Positions 17,589-48,961 of a stretch of 64,000 nucleotides of DNA are shown here, in pieces. Under the pieces are notes generated by a model. It searched no databases, was not told where the DNA came from, and saw nothing but the letters and a program-made list of their open reading frames with translations. The stretch comes from Bacteroidota bacterium (GTDB taxonomy: Bacteria; Bacteroidota; Bacteroidia; Cytophagales; Cyclobacteriaceae), in NCBI GenBank assembly GCA_018267285.1, contig JAFDYU010000008.1:1-64000 (forward strand). Direction: 5' to 3'. The position numbers and the translations under genes are program-made. Position 1 is the first letter of the stretch, and each line of letters opens with the position of its first letter.

Positions 17589-18356
17589 TCACAAATCGTT
17601 TTGTTTAAACCTTCTCAAGGCCAGCAGCAAAGGCCAGACCGCCCACAAGGAAAGCACCCCAAAAGCATAGATCATCCCCAGGTTGCTGCCAAAAAAACTT
17701 TTAAAGAAAGCCCCTGTATAGCCCATCAATGTAGAGATGTCCATAGACAGGAGCATCAGGATGCGCGACAGATCGATCGGGTTTAAACCGGAGAGAATTA
17801 GAGTGGGCAGTTCGAGCGGGTAATCGTTGAAGGTATAAATCACCCACAACAACAGGCCGTCATAGATTAATGTGAAGTAAAACCAGAATAGTAACGAGAT
17901 GCCGATGGCCTTGGCCTTATCGCGCGTGAGGCTGGACGCAAGAAAGCCGAGTGAAACAAAAATTATGGTGATGAACAGACTGTTAACAAGCAACGGGAGT
18001 ACTTGCGAAACCGCCCCAAAGACAAGCGCGGGCAGGCCTATACCTATCAATACCGAAAGGCAAAGCGAAGTAGCAACTCCCAAATATTGACTTAGAAAAA
18101 CAGATTTCCGGTTGATGGGCTGCGCCATTAGCAGGAGAATAAATTCGTACGAATTAAAATAATGAATGGTGGTGAATACAATGCTTACCAACGGTATCAC
18201 CAGGAGGGCAACATTCAATAAACTGGCAACCACCTTGGCCGAGTCGCCATCAATTTGAAAAAGAAGAATAGTTACGGCCAGCATAAAAGTGGTGTAAAAA
18301 ATTACAAACCTTGCGCGCAGCACATCTTGCAAAACATATTTAAGCATGGCGGTCAT
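17589..18356 (-). CDS. nosY: NosY-type ABC transporter permease
   Basis: Membrane component of the NosDFY complex that matures the CuZ centre of nitrous oxide reductase. The 255-residue protein has about six hydrophobic helices (for example about 14-34, 53-70, 97-118, 127-147, 160-183, 226-245) and no ATPase motifs. It resembles ABC-2 permeases of the NosY/copper group. The ATG overlaps the nosF stop codon by 4 bases. It is the last gene of the nos operon; a hairpin lies between it and the convergent glmS. Assignment relies on position as well as sequence. Confidence 0.88.
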   Translation of the reverse strand: MTAMLKYVLQDVLRARFVIFYTTFMLAVTILLFQIDGDSAKVVASLLNVALLVIPLVSIVFTTIHYFNSYEFILLLMAQPINRKSVFLSQYLGVATSLCLSVLIGIGLPALVFGAVSQVLPLLVNSLFITIIFVSLGFLASSLTRDKAKAIGISLLFWFYFTLIYDGLLLWVIYTFNDYPLELPTLILSGLNPIDLSRILMLLSMDISTLMGYTGAFFKSFFGSNLGMIYAFGVLSLWAVWPLLLALRRFKQNDL

Positions 18357-19087
18357 GGTGTTACCAGTTCTTTGATTTGTAAATCCTGATTTTTTATAAG
18401 AGATGAAATGGCTTTGGCAAAGGAAGCTTCGTGTGTTTCTGTTTTTAAATCTTCCACGGGGCTGTTGTATCGAACCGTACCTTCGAACAAATAGATCATA
18501 TCGGTAACAATTTCTTCAAGATCGCTGAGGATGTGCGAAGTGATGATGAAAAGTTTCCCCGCCTTTTTTTCTTCTACTAATTTTTGTTTCAGAATTTCTA
18601 CCGCCACCGGATCAAGCCCTGCGGTGGGTTCGTCTAAAATGAGAATGGAAGGCCGGAATAAGAACGTAAGGGCAGCGCTTACTTTTTGACGCGTGCCACC
18701 CGATAACGAATACATTCGTTTGTTCATCAGTGGTTGTAGCCCCAGAGTTTCAATCAATTCGTTGTCGGTATTTCTTACTTCGGGGCGGAGGCCTTTCACC
18801 ATATCAAAGAGTTGTGCCATGCTAAGCCCCGGAGGGTATTGGCCGATTTGCGGCATGTAGCCGATTTGTTTCCTATAAATAAATTGACCCAAAATAGTTT
18901 GATTGTTGATTTTAATTTCACCGCTGTCTGGAATCACCATTCCCAGAATTGATTTAATCAGTGTGGTTTTGCCCGAGCCGTTGGGGCCAAGCAGCGCATA
19001 GCAATGCCCCATCTTTAAGTCAAGATTTACCTCGCTCAGGGTTTTTAATTTTCCATACGTTTTATTTACGCGATGAAACGAAATCAT
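18353..19087 (-). CDS. nosF: NosF-type ABC transporter ATPase
   Basis: Cytosolic ATPase of the NosDFY maturation machine. The 244-residue protein has Walker A GPNGSGKTT (residues 34-42), a Q-loop near GYMPQIGQYP, signature YSLSGGTRQKVSAAL and Walker B SILILDEPTAGLDP, with an H-loop in IITSHIL. The start overlaps the end of nosD by 26 bases, with no later in-frame Met in a conserved position. It overlaps nosY by 4 bases. The order nosD-nosF-nosY is the standard one. Confidence 0.92.
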   Translation of the reverse strand: MISFHRVNKTYGKLKTLSEVNLDLKMGHCYALLGPNGSGKTTLIKSILGMVIPDSGEIKINNQTILGQFIYRKQIGYMPQIGQYPPGLSMAQLFDMVKGLRPEVRNTDNELIETLGLQPLMNKRMYSLSGGTRQKVSAALTFLFRPSILILDEPTAGLDPVAVEILKQKLVEEKKAGKLFIITSHILSDLEEIVTDMIYLFEGTVRYNSPVEDLKTETHEASFAKAISSLIKNQDLQIKELVTP

Positions 19088-20306
19088 AGGGTTTCATTGA
19101 AGGTTTATTGTCCAGTAAATTTTCGGGAGTAATGGCCGGAAAATTTTTTTCGGCACGGTCGAGGAGAAACACCATGAAGCTTCTCCAAAGCAATATGGAA
19201 ACCGGGATGCGCTCCACAATCATAGAATAAAGATTTACAGGTCTGTAGAACGTATCTCCAAAACCATCTTTGTTTAAATCGTAGCCTTCGTATTTGTCCC
19301 AATAATTTTTTTCGAAGGTATTAAGCACCATCGACCCGTTGGTGGCAATGTCGAAGGTATTTGCTTTCAGGTTATTTTTTTCAAAAACATTTTGATCGCA
19401 ACTCGCCTGGATGCGCAACGCATATCCGTTGCCGTTAAATTCGTTGTTGCGGAAATTGATGCGGCTGCTGCCTTCCATATAAATCCCCATGGTGTTGTTG
19501 ATGAACCGATTGTGATTTACTTCGCTGTCGCGGATATCTTTTAAAAGCAAGCCGTAGGCAGAAGCACCCCAGTTATTGGCAAAAAGATTTCCGGTCATGG
19601 TTACCGAGTGCGTGTACATCACGGCCACACCCGCTCCATTATTTACAAACTCGTTATCGATGTACTGATCTTGGTTTGAGAACATGAAGTGAAGCCCGTA
19701 GCGCAAGTTTTTTTCACTGTGATTTTTTTTAATGATGGAGTTGGTTACAAATTCAAAGTAAATTCCATCGCGATGATTGGATACCCGGTTTTGTTCGATT
19801 AAGGCGTGATCACTTTTCCAAAGATGGATAGCATTGCCAATAGAGGTTTCGGAATTTTCTGTCGATGTTCTGGAGATATAATTTTTAACAATCGTAGCAT
19901 GCGAAGTGTTGGAAATGTGAATTCCAAAATAGGCATCAATTATACGGTTGTTTAGAACGCACAACCCGTCCGCATCGTAGGCTTTAATGGCGGCAAAATC
20001 CAGCGTGGTGGATTTGCCGGTATTGATAAACCGGATTCCCTGAATAGTTACTCGTTTTGCGGTGATGGTAAAAAGTTCGTACTTGTTCTCACCGTCAATA
20101 GTTGGCATGCCTTCACCGATGATAGTCAGCGGTTTGTTGATAATTACATTTCTGGGTTTATAATATCCGGGTTTAATGATGAGCGTGTCTCCGGGTTTAG
20201 CTGATTGAATTGCCTTTGAAAATAATTTATCCCGTACAACTAAAGTTGTTGCAGTAGTAGCGAACGATGCTGTTAAAAAAACGGATAGGATAAAAAAGAT
20301 TTTCAT
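19062..20306 (-). CDS. nosD: NosD periplasmic maturation protein, parallel beta-helix
   Basis: Periplasmic partner of NosFY, required to build the copper cluster of N2O reductase. The open frame starts at 20333, but the signal peptide MKIFFILSVFLTASFA begins at the ATG at 20306. That ATG follows a GGAGGA-like ribosome site and overlaps the nosL stop (ATGA). The mature part is a right-handed beta-helix of repeated N-x-x-x-N-turns (CASH/NosD repeats, residues about 100-330). The C-terminal segment is the NosD family tail. At about 414 residues it is typical in size. Confidence 0.93.
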   Translation of the reverse strand: MKIFFILSVFLTASFATTATTLVVRDKLFSKAIQSAKPGDTLIIKPGYYKPRNVIINKPLTIIGEGMPTIDGENKYELFTITAKRVTIQGIRFINTGKSTTLDFAAIKAYDADGLCVLNNRIIDAYFGIHISNTSHATIVKNYISRTSTENSETSIGNAIHLWKSDHALIEQNRVSNHRDGIYFEFVTNSIIKKNHSEKNLRYGLHFMFSNQDQYIDNEFVNNGAGVAVMYTHSVTMTGNLFANNWGASAYGLLLKDIRDSEVNHNRFINNTMGIYMEGSSRINFRNNEFNGNGYALRIQASCDQNVFEKNNLKANTFDIATNGSMVLNTFEKNYWDKYEGYDLNKDGFGDTFYRPVNLYSMIVERIPVSILLWRSFMVFLLDRAEKNFPAITPENLLDNKPSMKPYDFVSSRK

Positions 20307-20743
20307 TGGAAATCCTCCTTCACTTCGTTCCAATCTAATTTCGACCCATTGGATTTTTTCAAATAATTTACTCGATCAGTTTCATTTTTAAATGCGGCAA
20401 CGTTACCGCCCATCGGAGACTTTACACTCTCCGAAAAACAATAGTGAGCCTCGGTAGCTGCAATTAATTCGTTTGCATCATCGGGGTGGGCATAATCGGT
20501 CACCATTTCAAAAGCATATTCATTGGCTTTACCTTCGGCCGACTTCAAAAAAGAAACCATGCACTTGATGTCGTCAAATTTAAACACCTTACCCTTGGTG
20601 GTAACCAGCTCAGCGCCAAACTTGTCGTCCATTAACGTCATCTTACAGAAGTAACAATTATCCGTGGCATATTTAAGTTGTTCCGGTTTTACCGAACAGC
20701 CAGTACAAAACAGAAGCAACAGAAAAGCTAAATTCTTTTTCAT
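20303..20743 (-). CDS. nosL: NosL copper-binding lipoprotein
   Basis: Outer-membrane or periplasmic-face lipoprotein that carries Cu(I) for NosZ maturation. The frame is open from 20821, but the lipoprotein signal MKKNLAFLLLLFCTGC begins at the ATG at 20743. That ATG overlaps the stop of the upstream membrane-protein gene (ATGA). The mature protein has the NosL motif CYFCKMTLMDDKFGAELVT with Cys and Met copper ligands, then VFKFDDIKCMVSFL. It is about 146 residues. Both ends are translationally coupled to neighbours in the nos operon. Confidence 0.92.
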   Translation of the reverse strand: MKKNLAFLLLLFCTGCSVKPEQLKYATDNCYFCKMTLMDDKFGAELVTTKGKVFKFDDIKCMVSFLKSAEGKANEYAFEMVTDYAHPDDANELIAATEAHYCFSESVKSPMGGNVAAFKNETDRVNYLKKSNGSKLDWNEVKEDFQ

Positions 20744-21327
20744 ATTGTTTTGCGCTTCATAAAAAATTGTTCGGCAACGAGAGCTCCGAAAGAAGTTAGA
20801 ACGACAACAATGAATATCCAACCGCCTACGTCAGGGCCAGAAAAAGCGGTAAAATTCAATAGTTGTTTTGTGCCGATTACAGGGGGTTGGTACGTCATGC
20901 CCGGTACTTTAATGGGCGCATCGGGATTTAAGTTGTGGCCATACTCATACCCCCACATATAGAAATCAATCAGTAACGCTAAGCCGGCAGAGCACAAAAC
21001 AATAACAAATGCGAGCAAAGCCCAACGCTTGTTAATCAAAGCGGCAAGCAACCCAATCAATATCAGTACACCTACACAATAGATCATGTATTTAAATTCC
21101 GGGAACATAGACACTTCGATGGTGTGCATACCAATGTAGTGATTAAGCGCACTGATTATTTTTACATTACCGGTTAGGTTGTTGATCCAGATTTTCATCT
21201 CAAGCCCTTCGGGGTACTGAGGCGCCCACATTAGTATTTGCCATAGTGGAGTGAAATATGCGGAGGTTAATGCGATAGCACAAATGGCTACCGTGATTCT
21301 GCTTATTACATGAAGTGAGTTTTTCAT
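20740..21327 (-). CDS. Four-helix membrane protein of the nos operon, function unknown
   Basis: The 195-residue protein has four hydrophobic helices (about 8-30, 80-100, 105-125, 163-186). A long exposed loop lies between helices 1 and 2 (PQYPEGLEMKIWINNLTGNVK). A second loop, rich in Pro and Gly, precedes helix 4. No CxxCH, CxxxC or ATPase motif is present. It sits between nosZ (85-base gap) and nosL (4-base overlap), so it should be expressed with them. Clade II nos clusters often carry a small membrane protein after nosZ (called nosB in some), and this may be the equivalent. The function is unknown; copper handling or electron transfer to NosZ are possibilities only. Confidence 0.8.
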   Translation of the reverse strand: MKNSLHVISRITVAICAIALTSAYFTPLWQILMWAPQYPEGLEMKIWINNLTGNVKIISALNHYIGMHTIEVSMFPEFKYMIYCVGVLILIGLLAALINKRWALLAFVIVLCSAGLALLIDFYMWGYEYGHNLNPDAPIKVPGMTYQPPVIGTKQLLNFTAFSGPDVGGWIFIVVVLTSFGALVAEQFFMKRKTI

Positions 21328-21412
21328 AAATTCTTTTTTGTTTAAGGAGTGCTGACAATGACATCAGCACTCCTGACCTGAACTGATCCAAACCCTGTAA
21401 ACCATGAACAGG

Positions 21413-23398
21413 TCACTTCCCGCTGGGCTCGGCTTCAACCTTTCCGGTTGAAAAAGTCAGCGGTACGTTGCTGCTCGCTCCGGATACACGAATGTATCCT
21501 TGCATTTCCTGATGCAGTGCAGAACAAAAGTCGGTACAGTAGAAGGGGAAGACACCCACTTCCTGCGGTTTCCATTTTAACGTTTGTGTTTCACCGGGCA
21601 TAATCAGGAGCTCTGCCGTGTTAGCAGCTTTGATTGCAAAGCCATGAGGTACATCCCAGTCTTGCTCAAGATTAGTAACGTGGAAATAAACTTCGTCTCC
21701 CAATTTTACACCTTCAATATTGTCGGGTGTTAGGTGCGAGCGTATGGCCGTCATATACACATGAACCTGATTTCCTTTGCGCTCAACTTTAGTATACTTT
21801 TCACCTTTTGCTGCGTACGCATGTTGGTTCTCCTCGATCTTGTAGATCTTTTGGGTGTTGGGCATAATCATACTTGCCGGAATTGCCTCGCCATAGTGCG
21901 GCTCGCCCACGGTGGGGAAATCGAGCAGAAGCTGCATTTTGTCTCCATCTATCGAATAAAGCTGAGCGCTTTGTGCCAGTTCAGGACCGGTGGGCAGGTA
22001 GCGATCTTTAGTGATTTTGTTGTAGGCAATTACATATTTGCCGTACGGTTTTTTAGTAGGCCCGCCCGGAACAGACAAGTGACCGATTGAATAATAAGTG
22101 GGAACACGATCCAATACTTTTAACGACTTAACCTCCCACTTCACAATTTCTGAGGACACAAAGAATGAAGTGTAGGCGTTTCCGTTTCCATCAAATTCGG
22201 TGTGCAACGGACCAAGCCCCGGCTTTTGCACTTCGCCATGAAGGGCCGCTTCGTATTTGATAATCGGTATGCCGCTATAATCTCCGTCAAAAGTTTTGTC
22301 GGCAATAGCTTTCTGAATTTTTGCAAAAGAGAACACCGGCAGTGTTGCCGCTAATTTTCCGCTGGCCACAATGTATTCTCCGCTCGGGTCGGTATCGCAA
22401 CCGTGTGGTGATTTTGGACAAGGGATGAAGTAGGCCAAATCTTTTAATTCGGCAATGTCGAGTTGCAACACTTCATTCAACATTTCAGAAGTAGCAACAC
22501 CTGTTTTTTCATCTAAAGAATTATGAGCGTATTTCAAGTTCGATACTTTTTTTCCCTTCCCTTGCTTAATGTATTCTTCCGCTTTTTTCCAATTCACGGC
22601 AAGGATAAAATCCTTATCGCGCTGAGAAGCATTTACTTCCAACAGTGTGTGTGCCTGTTCGGTATTGTAGCAAGAGAAGAAGAACCAACCGTGAGATGGA
22701 CCTTTACCCGCCCTCGCCAAATCAAAATCGATACCGGGAGTCAATAGCTGAAAGGCGATTTTCATGTTTCCATCTTTCGGGTCAACGCTGATAAGACTAA
22801 TTGTGCCTGTGAAATTCTTTTTGTACGAACTGATGGGCACATCTTTATTTTCACCCAACGGCACACTGAAACGAGTGCCCGCCACAACGTATTCGCTGTT
22901 CTCGGTGATGAAGGGCGATGAGTGATTGCCAGCACTGTTGGGGAGTTCCAGAATTTCTACCGTGCGAAAGGTTTTCATGTCGATGCGCCCCACGCGTGGG
23001 GTGTTGTTGGCATTGCAAAACGCCCAACGTCCATCGTGTTCGCCATTGGTTTGCGACAGCGCTATGTGGTGGAGGTCGTCCCACGGAATAAAACCGTGCG
23101 AAGTGTTCAACATGGCTTTGCTCTCTTCGCTAAAGCCGTAACCATTTTCCGGAAAAACAGAGAACACCGGAATGATTCGGAACAAACGGCCGGAGGGCAG
23201 CCCGTAAATCGACATCTGACCGTTAAACCCGCCCGATACAATGTTGTAGAACTCATCGTATTTGCCGGGGGCAACGTAAACTTTTTCGGCAGCACCGCTG
23301 GTCGTTACGGCCTGTGGCCCCTGCGGTTTACAACTGCTGAACAAAACCGCAGCAACACCGAGTGCGGTTGCAGTGGATATAATTTTATTGAGTTTCAT
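21413..23398 (-). CDS. nosZ: Nitrous oxide reductase, clade II (Sec-exported lipoprotein)
   Basis: Reduces N2O to N2, the last step of denitrification. The 661-residue protein starts with a Sec lipoprotein signal (lipobox Cys23 in LFSSCK) and no twin-arginine motif, the mark of clade II enzymes. The beta-propeller holds CuZ histidines, including His110/His111 in DDLHHIALS, His121 in NGEHDGRW, and SPHGCDTDPSG. The C-terminal cupredoxin domain carries the CuA ligands Cys621, Cys625, His629 and Met632 in FYCTDFCSALHQEM. All catalytic motifs look intact. It lies between a cytochrome c lipoprotein gene and the accessory genes. As a lipoprotein the enzyme is probably membrane-tethered. Confidence 0.97.
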   Translation of the reverse strand: MKLNKIISTATALGVAAVLFSSCKPQGPQAVTTSGAAEKVYVAPGKYDEFYNIVSGGFNGQMSIYGLPSGRLFRIIPVFSVFPENGYGFSEESKAMLNTSHGFIPWDDLHHIALSQTNGEHDGRWAFCNANNTPRVGRIDMKTFRTVEILELPNSAGNHSSPFITENSEYVVAGTRFSVPLGENKDVPISSYKKNFTGTISLISVDPKDGNMKIAFQLLTPGIDFDLARAGKGPSHGWFFFSCYNTEQAHTLLEVNASQRDKDFILAVNWKKAEEYIKQGKGKKVSNLKYAHNSLDEKTGVATSEMLNEVLQLDIAELKDLAYFIPCPKSPHGCDTDPSGEYIVASGKLAATLPVFSFAKIQKAIADKTFDGDYSGIPIIKYEAALHGEVQKPGLGPLHTEFDGNGNAYTSFFVSSEIVKWEVKSLKVLDRVPTYYSIGHLSVPGGPTKKPYGKYVIAYNKITKDRYLPTGPELAQSAQLYSIDGDKMQLLLDFPTVGEPHYGEAIPASMIMPNTQKIYKIEENQHAYAAKGEKYTKVERKGNQVHVYMTAIRSHLTPDNIEGVKLGDEVYFHVTNLEQDWDVPHGFAIKAANTAELLIMPGETQTLKWKPQEVGVFPFYCTDFCSALHQEMQGYIRVSGASSNVPLTFSTGKVEAEPSGK

Positions 23399-23418
23399 AT
23401 TTGTTTGGGGTAACTAGT

Positions 23419-23898
23419 TTATTTCTCGCCATCGTTTTGCCGCATAAACTCCAAAACATCGCGGGCATCACCTATGGAAACATTTTGGTTGGGCATTCTG
23501 GTTAAACAAAGTTCAAGCAGCTTTTGAGCTTCGGCATCTTTGTCGAGCATAACATCAACATTGGTCACCATATTCATAATCCACTCGGGCCTTCTTCTTT
23601 TTGTGATGCCGTTCCACCCGGGGCCAACGAGGCGATCGGTATTGAGTTTGTGGCACGCGCTGCATTTCATTTCATAAATTGCGTTGCCGCGCTTCACACG
23701 ATCTTGCTCAAGGGGTGTGTTGAGGGTTACCGATTTCACTGATCCAATTCCTTTGCCGGGATCCATCAGGTTGGCAGCCGGAACCGGCTCCGACTGAACT
23801 TCATTATTCTCCGGGTACTCTTCTTGAGTTTTTGGTTTATCGGGCGAGCAATTGAAAAGCATAACTGCGATTCCGAGAAATAAGGCTATTTTTTTCAT
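23419..23898 (-). CDS. Monohaem cytochrome c lipoprotein, probable NosZ electron donor
   Basis: The 159-residue protein has a lipoprotein signal (lipobox Cys17 in MLFNCSP), an acidic low-complexity linker (about 25-45), and a class I cytochrome c domain. The haem site is C79-S-A-C82-H83. A likely distal Met follows in CLTRMPNQNVS. It is the first gene of the nos operon, 20 bases before nosZ. This arrangement suggests it carries electrons from the quinol pool side to NosZ. No nosR is visible, which fits clade II systems that use cytochromes instead. Confidence 0.88.
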   Translation of the reverse strand: MKKIALFLGIAVMLFNCSPDKPKTQEEYPENNEVQSEPVPAANLMDPGKGIGSVKSVTLNTPLEQDRVKRGNAIYEMKCSACHKLNTDRLVGPGWNGITKRRRPEWIMNMVTNVDVMLDKDAEAQKLLELCLTRMPNQNVSIGDARDVLEFMRQNDGEK

Positions 23899-23926: not shown

Positions 23927-23973
23927 CATATAATTGGATGATAAGCCCGGTTATGATTGATGTTAACGGGAAA

Positions 23974-23989
23974 GATGATTTTAGTCATC
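23974..23989. promoter_or_regulatory. FNR/FixK-like palindrome upstream of the nos operon
   Basis: GATGA-TTTTAG-TCATC is a perfect 5-base inverted repeat with the TGA-N6-TCA core and spacing used by CRP/FNR-family regulators. It ends 76 bases upstream of the first nos start codon, a distance compatible with activation. A very similar site lies in the kinase/stress-protein promoter. The 209-base gap 23899-24107 otherwise holds no gene. Confidence 0.6.
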
Positions 23990-24107: not shown

Positions 24108-24959
24108 TTAACCTTTAACCATAAAGGTTAAAACCGGGCGAGATGAACTTTTCACAACATCTTCGGCAATACTTCGTGCAAACAGATGTGCGAAGCCGGT
24201 GCGTCCGTGGGTAGCCATGGCGATGGCATCGGCATGGATGGAAGTTGCAAAACTTACAATGCCGGCTTCTTCCTCATAATCGCTAAACACATTGATCGTG
24301 CAATTGGTAAGCTTGTTCTTCTCCACAAACAGTTCCATAGCCTGACGGTTAACGTAGTCGGGCTGAAAATCCATAGGTGTGTTGATGCGCACCAGGTGTA
24401 AGGTGGCATCGTATGTTTCTTGCATTTGTTTTACAATACTGATAAACGATTTCTCGCCTTCATCGAGAGAGCTTGCAAACACAATGTTTTTGAATTCGGT
24501 TGAACTCGGTTTTCCGCGAACGGAGAAAACCGGGCATCGGGAGTACCGCACAACTTTTTCTGCAATGGAGCCGATCAAACTTTCTTCCAAGTTGGTGCGG
24601 CCGGCTGTGCCAATAACAATCAAGTCGGCCTGATGGTCGGTAATGGTGGTGCGAATGCCGTGAAACGGATTACCCAACCGCAGTTCCGGTTTTACGGTTA
24701 TCCCTAAATTTTGTGCATACAGAGCAGCATGTGTTAAATCTTGTTTACTCTTTTTTATTAATTGCAACATGTACAGCTTGCCCTCACCATCGGCAAAGTC
24801 GATAACCTGCCCCTCCACGTTGAAAGATCCCTCCATGGGCTGTTCAATCACATTTAATAAAATTATTTCCGATCCTGTTTTCTTGGCTATGCCCACGGCT
24901 GTTTCAAGTGCCCACTGCGAATACGTAGAGAAATCAGTTGGAACCAGTATTTTTTTCAT
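24108..24959 (-). CDS. Tandem universal stress protein
   Basis: Two UspA domains in one 283-residue polypeptide (about 1-145 and 150-283), as common in Bacteroidota. Each ends with an ATP-binding-type motif: GTAGRTNLEESLIGSIAEKV and ATHGRTGFAHLFARSIAEDV. Both keep the G-x2-G pattern less strictly than MJ0577-type ATP binders. It follows the single-domain Usp gene by 12 bases on the same strand, so it shares that gene's promoter with the FNR-like palindrome. Likely role: stress or low-oxygen survival, inferred from the family. Confidence 0.88.
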   Translation of the reverse strand: MKKILVPTDFSTYSQWALETAVGIAKKTGSEIILLNVIEQPMEGSFNVEGQVIDFADGEGKLYMLQLIKKSKQDLTHAALYAQNLGITVKPELRLGNPFHGIRTTITDHQADLIVIGTAGRTNLEESLIGSIAEKVVRYSRCPVFSVRGKPSSTEFKNIVFASSLDEGEKSFISIVKQMQETYDATLHLVRINTPMDFQPDYVNRQAMELFVEKNKLTNCTINVFSDYEEEAGIVSFATSIHADAIAMATHGRTGFAHLFARSIAEDVVKSSSRPVLTFMVKG

Positions 24960-24971
24960 GATCGAAAAAAT

Positions 24972-25373
24972 TTAGGGTACAATAATCAACGGTCTATTGA
25001 GGTTTTCAACTAGTTCTTCAATGGATTGTTTTTGTAAAGTATTCAGTTTTTTGCCCACTACCAAAAAATCGATTTTAATTTTCTTGGCATGTTCTTTAAC
25101 GCGGTCGGTTAAAAATCCAACTTCCGTTTTGAAATCATAAGCCACCCCGGCATCACTCAAGAACTCCTTCTCCAGGTCTGAGAATTTTTTTAATGCATCG
25201 AGTTCTATCTGCTTTTTCATTTTCACTGCCTCGCCTTCCATAGGCTGCAATAACCGATAGGTAAACAAAATAGACAAAGGGTCATTGAGTTTTTTTGCCA
25301 GGCTTACAGCACAACGCAAAGCATCCTTTGAAGGTTCGGTAAAATCAATGACGCAGAGTATTCCTTTAGCCAT
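24972..25373 (-). CDS. Universal stress protein, single domain
   Basis: The frame is open from 25412, but the UspA fold starts at MAKGILCVIDFTEPSKDAL, so I place the start at 25373 (133 aa). It has the first beta-strand/helix pair, DFKTEVGFLTDRVKEHAKKIKIDFLVVGKK in the middle, and a short tail. The usual GSVS glycine-rich ATP motif after VVGKK is absent (LNTLQKQSIEE), so ATP binding is doubtful. It is first in a two-gene usp unit divergent from the PAS kinase. The FNR-like palindrome at 25442-25455 lies 69-82 bases upstream of this start. Confidence 0.8.
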   Translation of the reverse strand: MAKGILCVIDFTEPSKDALRCAVSLAKKLNDPLSILFTYRLLQPMEGEAVKMKKQIELDALKKFSDLEKEFLSDAGVAYDFKTEVGFLTDRVKEHAKKIKIDFLVVGKKLNTLQKQSIEELVENLNRPLIIVP

Positions 25374-25441
25374 GAGATACTTTTCGATCAAACTTAGCCG
25401 GGTCGTACACATTGCCTGCTATTCAAATGTCAGGCGAAAAA

Positions 25442-25455
25442 ATGATTTTTATCAT
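25442..25455. promoter_or_regulatory. FNR/FixK-like palindrome in the usp/kinase divergent promoter
   Basis: ATGAT-TTTT-ATCAT is a perfect inverted repeat with TGA-N6-TCA spacing, one base per arm different from the FNR consensus TTGAT-N4-ATCAA. It lies between the divergent usp gene (start 25373) and the PAS kinase gene (start 25498). It could serve both directions. It closely resembles the site at 23974-23989 upstream of the nos operon. Confidence 0.65.
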
Positions 25456-25497: not shown

Positions 25498-26739
25498 ATG
25501 GATTCCTCTCTTTTACCTAGCGAAGCATACCGCGAGATTTTTCAGAGCATGTCGGAAGGCATCATTATGGTTGACGAAAAAGGCGAAATAGCCATAGCCA
25601 ACCCTGTGGCCGAACAACTTTTTGGATACAACCACAACGAACTCAACGGCAAATTCCTTGAAAACCTATTGCCCGACAGGTTTAGAAAAGGACACATGAA
25701 CTTTAGGATGGCCTTTAACACAGACCCTCATCCTCGCAAGATGGGGCTCGGTAGGGATTTAGTGGCGCTTAAGAAAAACGGCACCGAATTTCCGGTAGAG
25801 ATCAGCCTGAGCTATACGCGAATGAACGGAAACCTGCTGGTGATGGCCTTTATCAGCGACATTTCGCAGCGAAAAAAAACGGAAGACGCACTCAAACAAA
25901 GCGAAGAACAGTTGATTGTGTACGCCACCGAACTGGAGAAGAAAGTTGAGCTTAGAACCGAAGCGTTGAATGCCAGCGTCAATAAACTGGAGCGCGAGGT
26001 GCAAGAGCGAAAAAAAGCCGAAGAAGAGGCCAAGAAATCGCTTGAAAAAGAACGCGAGTTAAATGAATTGAAAACAAAATTTGTTTCGATTGCCTCGCAC
26101 GAGTTCAGAACTCCGCTCAGCACCATACTCAGCTCCACATCGCTCATCAAGCAGTACAGCGACAAAGGTGAAATGGAAAAAGCCGGTAAGCATATTCAAC
26201 GAATTAAATCATCGGTTAACCACCTCACCATGATTTTAAACGATTTGCTTTCCGTAGGGAAATTGGAAGAAGGAAATGTGAAAGCTCAACCCGAATCAAT
26301 CCATATTAAAGAATTTTTTAACGAAGTGTTTGAAGAGGTGCAGCCCTTGCTGAAAGAAGGCCAGGTTTTAGAGTTGCAAGGAAATACAAATAGCAAATCG
26401 ATCGAAAGCGACCCCAGGATTTTGCGGAACATTATGTTTAACCTTATCTCCAATGCGAGTAAATATTCGCATGTTGGAAAAAAGATTTCGTTGATCTGTT
26501 CTCAAAAAGATTCGCACATCCGGTTTACCGTGAAAGACGAGGGCATCGGAATTTTAAAAGAAGAGCAAAAACATTTGTTCGATCGGTTTTTCAGAGCGAG
26601 CAATGCCGGAAATATACAAGGCACAGGGTTGGGATTAAATATTGTTAAACGCTATGCCGAGCTATTGAAAGGAACCGTCACTTTCGAAAGTGAGTATGGC
26701 GTGGGCAGCAGTTTCACATTAGACATTCCGATAAAATAA
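25498..26739 (+). CDS. Soluble PAS histidine kinase, FixL-like
   Basis: Cytosolic sensor kinase with no membrane helix. Order: PAS domain (about 8-125), coiled coil (about 128-195), HisKA with phospho-acceptor His201 in IASHEFRTPLSTI, HATPase_c with NLISNASKYS, VKDEGIGI and GTGLGLNIVKRY. The PAS domain matches the FixL layout. LPDRFRKGHMNF places His66 at the FixL haem-ligand position, and KMGLGRDLVALKKNG places Arg86 at the O2-contact arginine. These residues also occur in non-haem PAS domains, so oxygen sensing is a hypothesis. The receiver-CRP gene starts 7 bases after the stop and is the evident cognate regulator. Confidence 0.92.
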   Translation: MDSSLLPSEAYREIFQSMSEGIIMVDEKGEIAIANPVAEQLFGYNHNELNGKFLENLLPDRFRKGHMNFRMAFNTDPHPRKMGLGRDLVALKKNGTEFPVEISLSYTRMNGNLLVMAFISDISQRKKTEDALKQSEEQLIVYATELEKKVELRTEALNASVNKLEREVQERKKAEEEAKKSLEKERELNELKTKFVSIASHEFRTPLSTILSSTSLIKQYSDKGEMEKAGKHIQRIKSSVNHLTMILNDLLSVGKLEEGNVKAQPESIHIKEFFNEVFEEVQPLLKEGQVLELQGNTNSKSIESDPRILRNIMFNLISNASKYSHVGKKISLICSQKDSHIRFTVKDEGIGILKEEQKHLFDRFFRASNAGNIQGTGLGLNIVKRYAELLKGTVTFESEYGVGSSFTLDIPIK

Positions 26740-26745
26740 ATTGAA

Positions 26746-27807
26746 ATGAAAAAAATATTATTGATCGAGGATAATTTAGAAGTTCGGGAAAATACCGGTG
26801 AGATACTCGAGCTGGCGGGTTACGCTGTGGTAACAGCACCCAACGGAAAAATTGGTGTAGAACTTGCCCAAAGCGAAAAACCGGATCTTATCATCTGCGA
26901 CATAATGATGCCCGAGTTGGATGGCTATGGCGTGCTCCACATTTTGAGCAAGCGAAACGAAACATCTGCTATTCCATTCATCTTCTTAACGGCAAAAACA
27001 GAAAAATCTGATTTGCGCAAAGGCATGGAACTTGGAGCAGACGATTACCTCACCAAACCGTTCGATGAAACCGAACTGTTAAACGCCATACAAACCAGGC
27101 TACGCAAACACGACATACGGCTGAAAGAATATGCCCCAAATGCCGATGGCTTCGAAGACTTCATAAAAGACGCTCAAAAAATTATCCGCACGTACGATTT
27201 GTGTAAAGACAGGAAAATAAAATTAATCAAGAAACGAGGAGAACTATTTTTAGAAGGCGATTTGCCTCTGTCAGTTTTCTTTTTAAAATCGGGTGAAGTA
27301 AAAACCTACAAAGCTAACCAAGACGGAAAAGAGTTGATTACCAACATTTACAAGGCAAATGATTTTTTTGGATTTGAACCGGTGCTCGAAAATACAAACT
27401 ATCAGGAATCTGCAGCTGCATTACAAGACTGTGAAGTGATCAGTGTTCCCAAACAAGATTTCCTTACGCTGGTGTATGGCCAAAAAGATGTTTCGGCAAG
27501 TTTCATTGGCCTGCTTTGCAAAAAAGTGGCAGAAAAAGAAAGGCAACTTCTTAATCTGGCCTACAATTCCGTTCGGCAGCGCACCGCTGAAGCGCTTTTA
27601 ACTATGATGCGCCTGAAAGACGGGCAGACTAAAATGCAAATTTCGCGCGATGATTTAGCGAAGATGGTAGGCACCGCACCGGAGTCGGTAATACGTGTGC
27701 TTTCCGATTTTAAAGACGAAGAATTGATTAAAATTGATGGCGGCAAAATTTCAGTTACCCAGCCCGCCCGATTAGAAAAAGTAGTGCGGTGGAATGTGGC
27801 GCTTTAA
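26746..27807 (+). CDS. Receiver-CRP/FNR fusion response regulator
   Basis: A 353-residue regulator joins a CheY-like receiver (1-120, phospho-acceptor Asp52 in IICDIMMPELDG, Lys104 in YLTKPF) to a cNMP-binding-type beta-roll (about 150-245) and a CRP-type winged helix (about 265-345). The recognition helix MVGTAPESVIRVLSDFK keeps Glu313 and Arg317, the CRP/FNR residues that contact a TGA half-site. No FNR-type N-terminal cysteine cluster is seen, so the input is probably phosphorylation by the adjacent kinase. It thus combines FixJ-like and FixK-like functions in one protein. Likely targets are the TGA-N6-TCA sites at 25442 and 23974. Confidence 0.93.
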   Translation: MKKILLIEDNLEVRENTGEILELAGYAVVTAPNGKIGVELAQSEKPDLIICDIMMPELDGYGVLHILSKRNETSAIPFIFLTAKTEKSDLRKGMELGADDYLTKPFDETELLNAIQTRLRKHDIRLKEYAPNADGFEDFIKDAQKIIRTYDLCKDRKIKLIKKRGELFLEGDLPLSVFFLKSGEVKTYKANQDGKELITNIYKANDFFGFEPVLENTNYQESAAALQDCEVISVPKQDFLTLVYGQKDVSASFIGLLCKKVAEKERQLLNLAYNSVRQRTAEALLTMMRLKDGQTKMQISRDDLAKMVGTAPESVIRVLSDFKDEELIKIDGGKISVTQPARLEKVVRWNVAL

Positions 27808-27818
27808 AGCACACCTGT

Positions 27819-28190
27819 CTAATTATTTTCCATCAATCCCATTCGGAATTGAAAAATGCCGGCAATCGACTCAGCCCGTTGCTTTGCTTCTTCCGCTATT
27901 TGGCCGGAAAAATTTTGGTCAATGGTTTCCATAAAAAGAAAAAGCCATTGTTTAAAATGAGTTTGGTCGATGGCTAAAGGCAAGTGTTTTTGTAACGGAT
28001 TGCCGCGATATGATTGATCGCCCAAAAGAGCAGATGCCCAAAAGTTGTACATCACGGGTAAGTGAGCGGGCCAATTTACATGGCTGAATACAGGCGCAAG
28101 CAATGTATCGGCTTTTACTTTATCGTAAAATCGGTTTACCAAAATCTCTATTTCTTTGCGGCCTTCAATATCTTTTTTTACAACATCCAT
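27819..28190 (-). CDS. Group III truncated haemoglobin
   Basis: Small haem protein of the 2/2 globin fold; the group III members are poorly understood and have been linked to microaerobic life and NO handling. The 123-residue sequence has RFYDKVKADTLLAPVFSHV (B/C helices), YNFWASALLGDQSYRGNPLQKH (E region) and the proximal-His segment LAIDQTHFKQWLFLF. It converges on the receiver-CRP gene with 11 bases between stop codons, and prmC lies upstream on the same strand. No FNR-like palindrome was found in its short upstream gap. Confidence 0.85.
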   Translation of the reverse strand: MDVVKKDIEGRKEIEILVNRFYDKVKADTLLAPVFSHVNWPAHLPVMYNFWASALLGDQSYRGNPLQKHLPLAIDQTHFKQWLFLFMETIDQNFSGQIAEEAKQRAESIAGIFQFRMGLMENN

Positions 28191-28215: not shown

Positions 28216-29061
28216 TCATTTTTGAATTCTACTGGCACGAATCACCCTGTCTTTTCCATCCAAGTCTTTAATGATAGTGACCTGATTAAAATCATAATTC
28301 ACAAATAAGTTCTTTACCGCTGAGCCAAACTGTTGGTTGATCTCTACAAAAATATCACCTTGAGGGGCAAGCTTCTGTTTAGCCTTTTCAGCAATTGCTC
28401 GATAAAAAACCAAAGGGTCGTCATCGGGAACAAAGAGTGCCTGATGGGGCTCGTAGTCTATAACATTTGGTTGCATGTATTTTTTTTCAAGCTCGCGCAC
28501 ATAAGGTGGATTGCTTACAAGAATGTCGATCGGGCTAAGGTTTACTTCATCTTTTAAAAAATCAGTTTGCAGAAATTCAATATTCGCGCTGTGTTTCTTT
28601 GCATTTTCATTCGCAACATGTAAAGCCTCTTTGCTAATATCCAAAGCAATGATTTTTGACTGAGGTATTTCCAGGCTTAGTGTAATGGCAATACATCCGC
28701 TGCCGGTACCTACATCCAGAATAACGGGCGTTTGCTGTTTCGCTTTCAATACTTCATGAACCAGTATTTCTGTTTCGGGTCTTGGAATTAACACCGCAGG
28801 CGTTACGTTGAATTTACGACCATAAAATCCGGCTTCTCCCAAAACGTATTGCACGGGTTCGTGCTGATTCAACCGGCTAATGATTTTAGAAAAATCGATG
28901 ACTTCAATTTCTTTCTCTAAGAGGATGTCTGCCAGCGAAAGCGAAAAATAGCTCTCCATTAACAACAACGCAATGGCCTGAATTTCATCGGGATCGGTAA
29001 GCGTTAATCTTGATTTTATTGCATTAAAAACAACTTTGGAATTGGTTAACTTGCGAATCAT
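28216..29061 (-). CDS. prmC: Release factor glutamine methyltransferase
   Basis: Methylates the GGQ glutamine of peptide chain release factors. The frame is open from 29238, but the upstream stretch is not PrmC-like. The family N-terminus begins at the ATG at 29061 (MIRKLTNSKVVFNAI), giving 281 residues. The S-adenosylmethionine motif VILDVGTGSGCIAITL and the catalytic NPPY (in ILVSNPPYVRE) are present, followed by YEPHQALFVPDDDPL. It is divergent from ribD with only 24 bases between start codons and precedes the truncated haemoglobin gene by 25 bases. Confidence 0.94.
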   Translation of the reverse strand: MIRKLTNSKVVFNAIKSRLTLTDPDEIQAIALLLMESYFSLSLADILLEKEIEVIDFSKIISRLNQHEPVQYVLGEAGFYGRKFNVTPAVLIPRPETEILVHEVLKAKQQTPVILDVGTGSGCIAITLSLEIPQSKIIALDISKEALHVANENAKKHSANIEFLQTDFLKDEVNLSPIDILVSNPPYVRELEKKYMQPNVIDYEPHQALFVPDDDPLVFYRAIAEKAKQKLAPQGDIFVEINQQFGSAVKNLFVNYDFNQVTIIKDLDGKDRVIRASRIQK

Positions 29062-48229: not shown

Positions 48230-48280
48230 AACCTGTTTTTGAAAATATTTTTCCGCAACTTAGTCAATAAATTACGAACC

Positions 48281-48961
48281 ATGTCAGACGCCTCCGCCCT
48301 TTGGTATTTTGAAAGCTCAAACCTCTACGATATCCTTTGTCCGCACAAAGTTAAAGCGATGGCCGAACGGCACACGTTTAATTATTTTAAGAAAGACCAG
48401 TTTATCTATTTTCCCGATGAACCCGCTCAATACATTTATATGATTGCGGATGGGCGTGTGCGTATCGGTCATTATTTGGATGACGGCAAGGAAGTGGTAA
48501 ATGCCATTTTGGGCATGGGCGAAATTTTTGGCGAACTCGCCCTGGCTGGCGAAGAAAAACGAAAAGGATTCGCCCAGGCGATGGACGATAAAACCACCAT
48601 TTGCCCGCTGAGCATTGATGAACTGAAACAACTGATGTGGGAAAATAAAGAGCTGAGCTTTAAAATGCTGAAACTGGTTGGCCTTAGGTTGATGAAATTA
48701 GAAAGAAAACTTGAGCTGCTGGTTTTTAAAGACGCACGCACCCGCATTGTTGAATTTATTAAAGACTCTGCTACTTGGAAAGGAAAAAAAGTAGGCTTTG
48801 AAACGTTGGTGCCCACTCAGCTAACACACAAAGATATTGCAGCCTTAACCGGCACAAGCCGCCAAACCGTAACTACCGTACTTAACGAACTGAAAGAAAA
48901 GAACCTAATCAATTTTGATCGTAAGAAAATTTTGGTGCGCGATCTCGCCAATTTAAAATAA
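48281..48961 (+). CDS. Crp/Fnr-family transcriptional regulator
   Basis: The open frame begins at 48239, but the conserved protein starts MSDASALWYFESS at 48281 (226 aa). A cNMP-binding-type beta-roll (about 20-130, DEPAQYIYMIADGRVRIGHY...GEIFGELALAGEEKR) precedes a dimer helix. A winged helix follows, with recognition segment DIAALTGTSRQTVTTVLNELKEKN. The effector is unknown; no FNR-type cysteine cluster is seen. It is divergent from the MOSC-SCO1-cytochrome operon and may regulate it. Confidence 0.9.
   Translation: MSDASALWYFESSNLYDILCPHKVKAMAERHTFNYFKKDQFIYFPDEPAQYIYMIADGRVRIGHYLDDGKEVVNAILGMGEIFGELALAGEEKRKGFAQAMDDKTTICPLSIDELKQLMWENKELSFKMLKLVGLRLMKLERKLELLVFKDARTRIVEFIKDSATWKGKKVGFETLVPTQLTHKDIAALTGTSRQTVTTVLNELKEKNLINFDRKKILVRDLANLK

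Follow-up and report, generated by a model that had tools for sequence, protein, structure and literature searches.

How does a bacterium come to carry, in two adjoining genes, parts that resemble FixL, FixJ and FixK, and what might such a pair control? The pair lies in a 64,000-nucleotide (nt) stretch, hereafter the window, covering positions 1 to 64,000 of contig JAFDYU010000008.1 (assembly GCA_018267285.1) from a Bacteroidota bacterium of the Cyclobacteriaceae (order Cytophagales). It consists of a PAS-domain histidine kinase followed by a regulator in which a receiver is fused to a CRP/FNR-type DNA-binding part. Our analysis of conserved residues, neighbouring genes and a recurrent operator in related genomes leads us to regard the pair as probably a two-component low-oxygen switch, in which two proteins would do the work that FixL, FixJ and FixK share in rhizobia. 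Its elements, placed by open reading frame (ORF) call, Pfam and alignment, are:

25498..26739, plus strand: soluble PAS histidine kinase, 413 amino acids
25525..25863, plus strand: PAS domain of the kinase with His66 (FixL/FG214 proximal haem-ligand position), Met82 and Arg86 (FixL distal Arg position)
26746..27807, plus strand: receiver–CRP/FNR fusion regulator, 353 amino acids

The kinase comprises PAS (residues 10–122), HisKA (192–259) and HATPase_c (305–412) domains, and its His-box SHEFRTP starts at residue 200. Because its highest 19-residue mean hydropathy is only 0.88, no membrane segment is expected. The fusion comprises Response_reg (4–116), cNMP_binding (162–242) and HTH_Crp_2 (278–345). 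Its receiver has the acidic pocket, phospho-acceptor Asp, Thr and Lys of response regulators (Asp9, Asp52, Thr82 and Lys104), and its recognition helix has the Glu and Arg of the CRP/FNR type (Glu313 and Arg317), which we take to be the residues that read TGA; all six residues are invariant across 22 aligned fusions. A first-pass annotation of this DNA had proposed a soluble PAS kinase, a receiver with Asp52 fused to a CRP/FNR domain, and Glu313 and Arg317 in the recognition helix, and these features stand; the genes do adjoin on the same strand, kinase first, as it said, but its gap of seven bases counts to the A of the ATG, and the true gap is 6 nt. The only cysteines of the fusion are Cys51, Cys153, Cys229 and Cys258. 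An FNR-type N-terminal Cys cluster for a [4Fe-4S] centre was not found in the fusion sequence, and the positions aligned with the cAMP contacts of E. coli CRP, which we assume to be Glu72 and Arg82, hold no Glu or Arg. The receiver is therefore the likely input of the fusion.

The kinase–fusion pair is a conserved family that extends beyond this genome. Of 148 genomes sampled from the order, 66 have the fusion (E ≤ 1e-40); across a sample of the phylum, 61 of 395 genomes match it, 56 from the same class or nearer over most of its length and 5 from elsewhere in the phylum by the receiver only. Loci from named genomes, including Chryseolinea, Ohtaekwangia, Dyadobacter, Hymenobacter, Pontibacter and Runella, number 80 among the matches listed, so at least 80. 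Many of these loci end at contig ends, and in 77 of the 80 the fusion is immediately preceded by the catalytic part of a related kinase. At six loci (L106, L111, L112, L159, L163 and L185) a longer cluster ends in a receiver–CRP fusion: it opens with a kinase whose PAS domains are of FixL type and often form a tandem pair, continues in several cases with a single-domain receiver, and then has a second kinase and the fusion. This arrangement looks like a branched phosphorelay.

The window kinase has the layout of FixL, with PAS followed by HisKA and HATPase. Alignment with FixL confirms that His66 and Arg86 occupy the haem-ligand and O2-contact positions named in the first-pass annotation, those of the proximal His and the distal Arg. 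The FixL signature MPEP...IIGxGR was not found in the window PAS, which reads LLPD...KMGLGR. Compared on its own with solved structures, the window PAS retrieves 14 sequences at E ≤ 4e-9, all of them FG214 (PDB 10jx, titled as the haem-binding PAS domain of FG214), FixL or DosP; the next matches, from 4e-4 on, are partial and come from sensors that are, we presume, not known as haem proteins. An AlphaFold model of the PAS domain, built on an alignment termed A2, has a predicted local distance difference test (pLDDT) score of 92, and a structure search with it returns 10jx, FixL and DosP at ranks 1–31 and the first LOV domain at rank 32. Two other results from A2 were not used: the invariance of His66, since the rows of A2 were chosen for that His, and a profile search (FixL 1e-30, DosP 1e-24, LOV 1e-8), since A2 included four FixL-type rows.

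A separate set of 233 PAS rows, reduced to 198 by removal of identical rows and including some partial ones, places these residues in context. His66 is kept in 98 of 104 rows from partner kinases, some of them partial, and position 86 in the same 104 rows is Arg in 55, Met in 18, Leu in 11, Ile in 6 and Phe in 5. The His66–Arg86 pair also occurs in 27 of 72 PAS rows from non-partner proteins, which bears out the caution in the first-pass annotation that similar residues are found elsewhere; as stand-alone proof of haem the pair was rejected for this reason. The annotation's proposal of a haem sensor thus draws its support from the nearest solved relatives, which bind haem, and not from the pair, which is weak by itself. 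The FixL signature MPEP is present in 10 of the 104 partner rows, 15 further MPEP PAS rows are encoded within about 4.5 kb, and one tested MPEP partner PAS matches FixL at 5e-29. Several partner kinases have a His at PAS position 84 or 85 (variation over 84–86 is seen, for example, in L097, L117 and L168), and distal haem ligands, this suggests, have varied within one kinase family. To judge from these comparisons, the window PAS probably binds haem through His66.

Which signal a haem at His66 would report is a separate matter. It is rather unlikely, in our estimate, that the domain binds haem and reports redox state, nitric oxide (NO) or haem availability, which would make the kinase a nitrosative, redox or haem sensor. 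The nearest solved PAS, FG214, inclines towards such a role: its report assigns His156 as proximal and His175 as distal ligand of a mainly bis-His haem that is six-coordinate when oxidised and changed by reduction, and proposes switching by redox or gas (PMC13060918). Position 86 is variable among the partner rows, and nos and globin genes adjoin the pair in the window. By residue spacing in our alignment, however, FG214 His156 corresponds to window His66, Met172 to Met82 and His175 to Gly85, so that the distal ligand of FG214 is a glycine here, followed by the FixL-like Arg86; some partner kinases have FixL-type PAS domains, and the cbb3 and hemN-like neighbours described below indicate low oxygen. 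A PAS domain without haem, serving in dimerisation or binding a small ligand while the signal enters elsewhere, is improbable: His plus Arg is common in PAS domains of the order, as the non-partner rows illustrate, and haem binding is not readable from sequence, but His66 is retained by nearly all partner rows and every one of the 14 close solved relatives is FG214, FixL or DosP.

The reading we prefer, a low-oxygen switch, draws on the genes that accompany the pair in relatives. We compared 41 neighbourhoods, the window and 40 relatives hand-chosen from 83 places, in two of which (L107 and L113) the ORF rule used yields no regulator; this set overlaps partly with the named loci, and L117 and L184 look like one contig. 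Besides kinases and receivers, the commonest clusters are ccoP (15), fused ccoNO (14), ccoG (13) and ccoH (13), followed by a DsbD_2 protein (11), a ccoI-like ATPase (9) and then hemN-like and universal stress protein (usp) genes. Pfam assigns FixP_N, COX1 plus FixO, FixH and FixG_C to representatives of the cbb3 oxidase clusters; to the hemN-like protein it assigns only Radical_SAM, and HemN is our own reading. Across the 80 named loci we counted ccoNO at 29 (one a weak match), ccoP at 25, hemN-like genes at 11, uspA-like at 22 and uspB-like at 9. Of the 56 genomes that have both genes, 25 have ccoNO no more than 15 kb from the best-scoring copy of the fusion, against fewer than one genome of 56 expected by chance (our own estimate, for genomes of several Mb), and in L091, of the same genus, cbb3 genes directly adjoin the pair. 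Genes for cbb3 oxidase, hemN-like proteins and universal stress proteins are the kind of targets that FixK controls in rhizobia. These FixK-type neighbours and the domain layout support the FixL–FixJ–FixK-like architecture in two proteins that the first-pass annotation had put forward. Genes of the cbb3 type respond to oxygen in this phylum, since Flavobacterium psychrophilum strongly raises cbb3 under oxygen limitation, according to PMC9723704.

The same annotation had described the pair as lying beside the nos operon, but in relatives nos is not the usual neighbour. nosZ falls within the examined flanks of 3 of the 80 named loci. Another 17 genomes of the order have both nosZ and the fusion: 8 have them on one contig, at least 45 kb apart, and 9 on different contigs of draft assemblies, as measured from the best-scoring fusion copy per genome. 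On these distances nos was rejected as the defining partner; the operator described below keeps it as a conserved target. A globin gene, too, is within the examined flanks of 3 of the 80 loci, and in a near relative (L139) fusion, globin, nos and ccoH genes share one stretch.

An unguided search for any 4-bp dyad with a spacer of 2–10 in 213 upstream regions, compared with shuffles, gave TGAT-N4-ATCA as its top dyad (54 regions against 1.9 expected). Upstream sets omitted regions shorter than 120 bases and, for non-kinase genes, matches not reaching the protein start; regions before cbb3 genes were taken from 40 of 43 fusion-less genomes and from 20 of 31 fusion genomes with non-adjacent ccoNO. 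The form TGAYN4RTCA stands before 64 of 110 kinase genes (1.8 expected), 13 of 13 uspB-like genes (0.3), 20 of 36 uspA-like genes (0.6), 11 of 15 hemN-like genes (0.3), 19 of 39 fusion-adjacent ccoNO genes (0.7) and 14 of 20 non-adjacent ccoNO genes of fusion genomes (0.5); the kinase and usp sets are not independent, because divergent genes share upstream regions. Within 1.5 kb before nosZ it occurs at 17 of 23 nos loci, the window included (2.4 expected), divided into 15 of 18 with the fusion, again counting the window, and 2 of 5 without, and in many fusion-bearing genomes it lies shortly before a cytochrome c gene. Of 195 distinct sites, 89 have a second site, at most slightly degenerate, exactly 22 bp away, against 0.45 expected with shuffled flanks; in the comparison by upstream region, identical regions were dropped. 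A spacing of 22 bp is about two helix turns and points to a pair of dimers on the same DNA face. Palindromes paired at 21–23 bp before cbb3 or nos genes are seen in two genomes without the fusion (L318 and L320) and in six with it (L337, L339, L345, L055, L058 and L062). Since paired sites occur with and without the fusion, pairing is independent of it.

The window itself has, in order, the nos operon, two usp genes, kinase, fusion and globin, with the following genes and sites around the pair:

17589..23898, minus strand: nos operon
23419-23898, minus strand: nos-operon cytochrome c
21413-23398, minus strand: Sec-type NosZ (TIGR04246, 924 bits)
20740-21327, minus strand: nos-operon protein without family match
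20303-20821, minus strand: NosL
19062-20333, minus strand: NosD
18353-19087, minus strand: nos-operon ATPase, named by eye
17589-18356, minus strand: nos-operon permease, named by eye
24108..25412, minus strand: pair of universal stress protein genes in divergent orientation to the kinase gene
27819..28190, minus strand: bacterial globin gene, convergent with the regulator gene
25442..25455, no strand: operator-like palindrome ATGATTTTTATCAT, in the stretch that separates the kinase gene from the divergent usp genes
23975..23988, no strand: operator-like palindrome ATGATTTTAGTCAT preceding the nos operon; the start codon of the cytochrome c gene follows after about 84 bp
23954..23965, no strand: degenerate partner of the nos palindrome, TGATTGATGTTA, at a spacing of exactly 22 bp and with 7 of the 8 motif positions matched
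28282..28295, no strand: possible further site CTGATTAAAATCAT, without a 22-bp partner, located about 92 bp ahead of the globin start

The palindrome ATGATTTTTATCAT has only a 5-of-8 partner at 22 bp, on the usp side, which is within chance. CTGATTAAAATCAT sits inside the end of the coding sequence upstream of globin, and it is a weak candidate: a conserved globin operator was rejected because a site accompanies 1 of 6 globin matches in relatives. TGAYN4RTCA occurs 5 times in the window against 3.4 expected, showing no enrichment; for WTGATN4ATCAW, one mismatch allowed, there are 18 occurrences where 13.8 would be expected. As window counts do not go beyond chance, the palindromes gain significance only through comparison between genomes. 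Both FNR-like palindromes reported in the first-pass annotation exist, fit TGAY-N4-RTCA and are conserved before kinase and nos genes, but their number in the window is unremarkable and they do not identify the regulator that binds them. The window's own genome has two HTH_Crp_2 proteins at E ≤ 0.001, the fusion and a second one in the window at 48239-48961, whose helix GTSRQTVTTVL is without the Glu and Arg; this CRP/FNR-type gene lies near genes for a SCO1/SenC protein and a cytochrome c. On another contig (L213:8061-10948, contig C3) there is a divergent ccoN with a separate ccoO/cytochrome c-like gene, next to a Rrf2-type regulator and a hemerythrin-like iron-sulfur-repair protein (named by eye).

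Because the usual fused ccoNO was not found in this genome, usp, nos and perhaps globin would be the local targets, and nos would be one target of the system, not the main one. A purely accidental proximity, with nos no target here, has a small chance of being right: the distances in the 17 other genomes and the 3 of 80 loci with nosZ in their flanks are what it would lead one to expect, yet the motif precedes nosZ in most fusion genomes, window included, and the window nos site has its 7-of-8 partner at 22 bp.

Several findings weigh against a two-protein low-oxygen switch. The full-length regulator gives a structure model of only fair quality (pLDDT 84, predicted template modelling score 0.48). 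Of the 104 partner rows, 49 lack Arg at position 86, and because Arg86 is unconserved and the distal His175 of FG214 is Gly85 here, ligand and signal may differ from those of FixL. ccoNO is absent from 10 of the 66 fusion-bearing genomes, among them that of the window (97.7% complete), in which the usual fused gene was not found at E ≤ 1e-100; two genomes of the same genus have it. The strict motif is lacking in 46 of 110 kinase regions. Genome-wide, the window's own genome has 33 WTGATN4ATCAW palindromes against 9 for a control pattern, and these were rejected as a regulon because nearly all those read are coding. Fusion-less genomes, finally, have the same motif before ccoNO in 23 of 40 cases, with a partner site in 17 of the 29 ccoNO regions that have a site. 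The expected loss of the motif from such genomes did not occur, so a motif specific to the fusion was rejected, and the operator does not prove binding by the fusion.

The persistence of the motif in fusion-less genomes led us to search for FNR-like regulators. A closer stand-alone relative of the CRP part is present in 22 of 24 fusion-less genomes searched; of the 27 stand-alone proteins in which the Cys cluster was read, 23 have an N-terminal CxxC, and most proteins read have the recognition helix GTA.E..IR. For the genome count, stand-alone relatives were taken from matches of about 1e-29 or better, and FNR-like denotes a match that begins no later than query residue 13, in an open frame of up to 340 amino acids. 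The 99 genomes with ccoNO divide into 40 that have only the fusion, 40 with only the stand-alone regulator, 16 with both and 3 with neither (Fisher p 3e-11 for the anticorrelation, relatedness not corrected for). A stand-alone FNR-like regulator is thus found in 40 of 43 sampled genomes with cbb3 and without the fusion. The 16 of 56 cbb3 genomes with the fusion that have both count on the adverse side, and strict mutual exclusion was rejected on their account. In a tree of CRP/FNR domains, fusions and stand-alones fall on two sides of one branch (98/100), with unreliable placement of the long branches (the other window CRP and L392).

In those 40 genomes the FNR-like regulator is often accompanied by the operator seen with the fusion, so we read the two as alternatives over one operator, the fusion being the two-component counterpart of FNR. 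Tentatively, and with nearly as much confidence as doubt, we suggest that the lineage exchanged its oxygen-sensing part and kept operator and regulon: an FNR-like Fe-S protein or a haem-PAS kinase plus fusion would read the same paired sites before cbb3, hemN, usp and nos, phosphorylation of the fusion seating two dimers 22 bp apart. That the palindromes belong to another, FNR-like regulator while the fusion controls something else is very unlikely, for although fusion-less genomes have the same motif and pairing and FNR-like regulators of similar helix, the second HTH_Crp_2 gene of the window's own genome has a different helix and the motif recurs before the fusion's own operon.

The low-oxygen switch that we favour would then work as follows. 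The kinase PAS would hold haem through His66, and loss of bound gas, or haem reduction, would turn the kinase on. The kinase would phosphorylate Asp52 of the adjoining regulator, and the phosphorylated fusion would bind TGAY-N4-RTCA, often with two dimers occupying sites at the 22-bp spacing. It would activate its own operon and the usp genes, as well as cbb3 oxidase, hemN and nos in genomes that have them. The FixJ step and the FixK step would be combined in a single protein, with neither cAMP nor an Fe-S cluster; in relatives without the fusion, a stand-alone FNR-like regulator probably fills this role at the operator instead.

FixL–FixJ–FixK and FNR are the two textbook routes to low-oxygen control of oxidase, haem-synthesis and denitrification genes. 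If our reading is true, the pair represents a third arrangement, a phosphorylated CRP/FNR protein that dispenses with a second transcription step and with an Fe-S cluster, and the fusion type is common in one bacterial class. Control of N2O reduction in bacteria with Sec-type NosZ would become directly testable, and the order would offer a natural experiment in which the sensor was swapped and the regulon kept. We found no description of the receiver–CRP/FNR arrangement in a literature search by title and abstract start, in which subscription journals were thinly covered and some phrases were narrow.

Set beside known systems, the pair matches none entirely. DosP (EcDOS) shares the haem PAS fold and is among the best structure matches, but it has a phosphodiesterase output, and its distal Met95 position would, we presume, be Leu84 in the window PAS. 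FG214 of Fimbriimonas ginsengisoli (PDB 10jx/10jy), whose PAS is the nearest solved one, is a one-component HTH-PAS (helix-turn-helix–PAS) protein with a mainly bis-His haem and, unlike the window protein, no kinase (PMC13060918). With FNR, an Fe-S oxygen sensor, and the stand-alone regulators of the order the fusion shares the CRP/FNR fold, a helix like GTA.E..IR and the operator before cbb3; unlike most of the FNR-like stand-alones read, it has no N-terminal CxxC and instead a receiver fed by a kinase. The FixL–FixJ–FixK2 system of Bradyrhizobium has a haem-PAS kinase, a receiver and a CRP/FNR-type activator, with cbb3 oxidase, hemN and nos as targets, and FixJ, with its LuxR-type HTH, switches on fixK. 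The fusion is neither FixJ nor FixK/FNR: its receiver feeds cNMP_binding and HTH_Crp_2 domains and not a LuxR/GerE-type HTH, and, unlike FixK and stand-alone CRP/FNR regulators, it carries an N-terminal Response_reg and lacks the Cys cluster. Compared with that cascade, the subject of PMC5582078, the pair has in common a kinase of predicted haem-PAS type, a receiver, a CRP/FNR-type output and predicted cbb3, hemN and nos targets; it differs in joining receiver and CRP/FNR domain in one protein, which removes one transcription step, and in acting, as we predict, on TGAY-N4-RTCA, often doubled at 22 bp.

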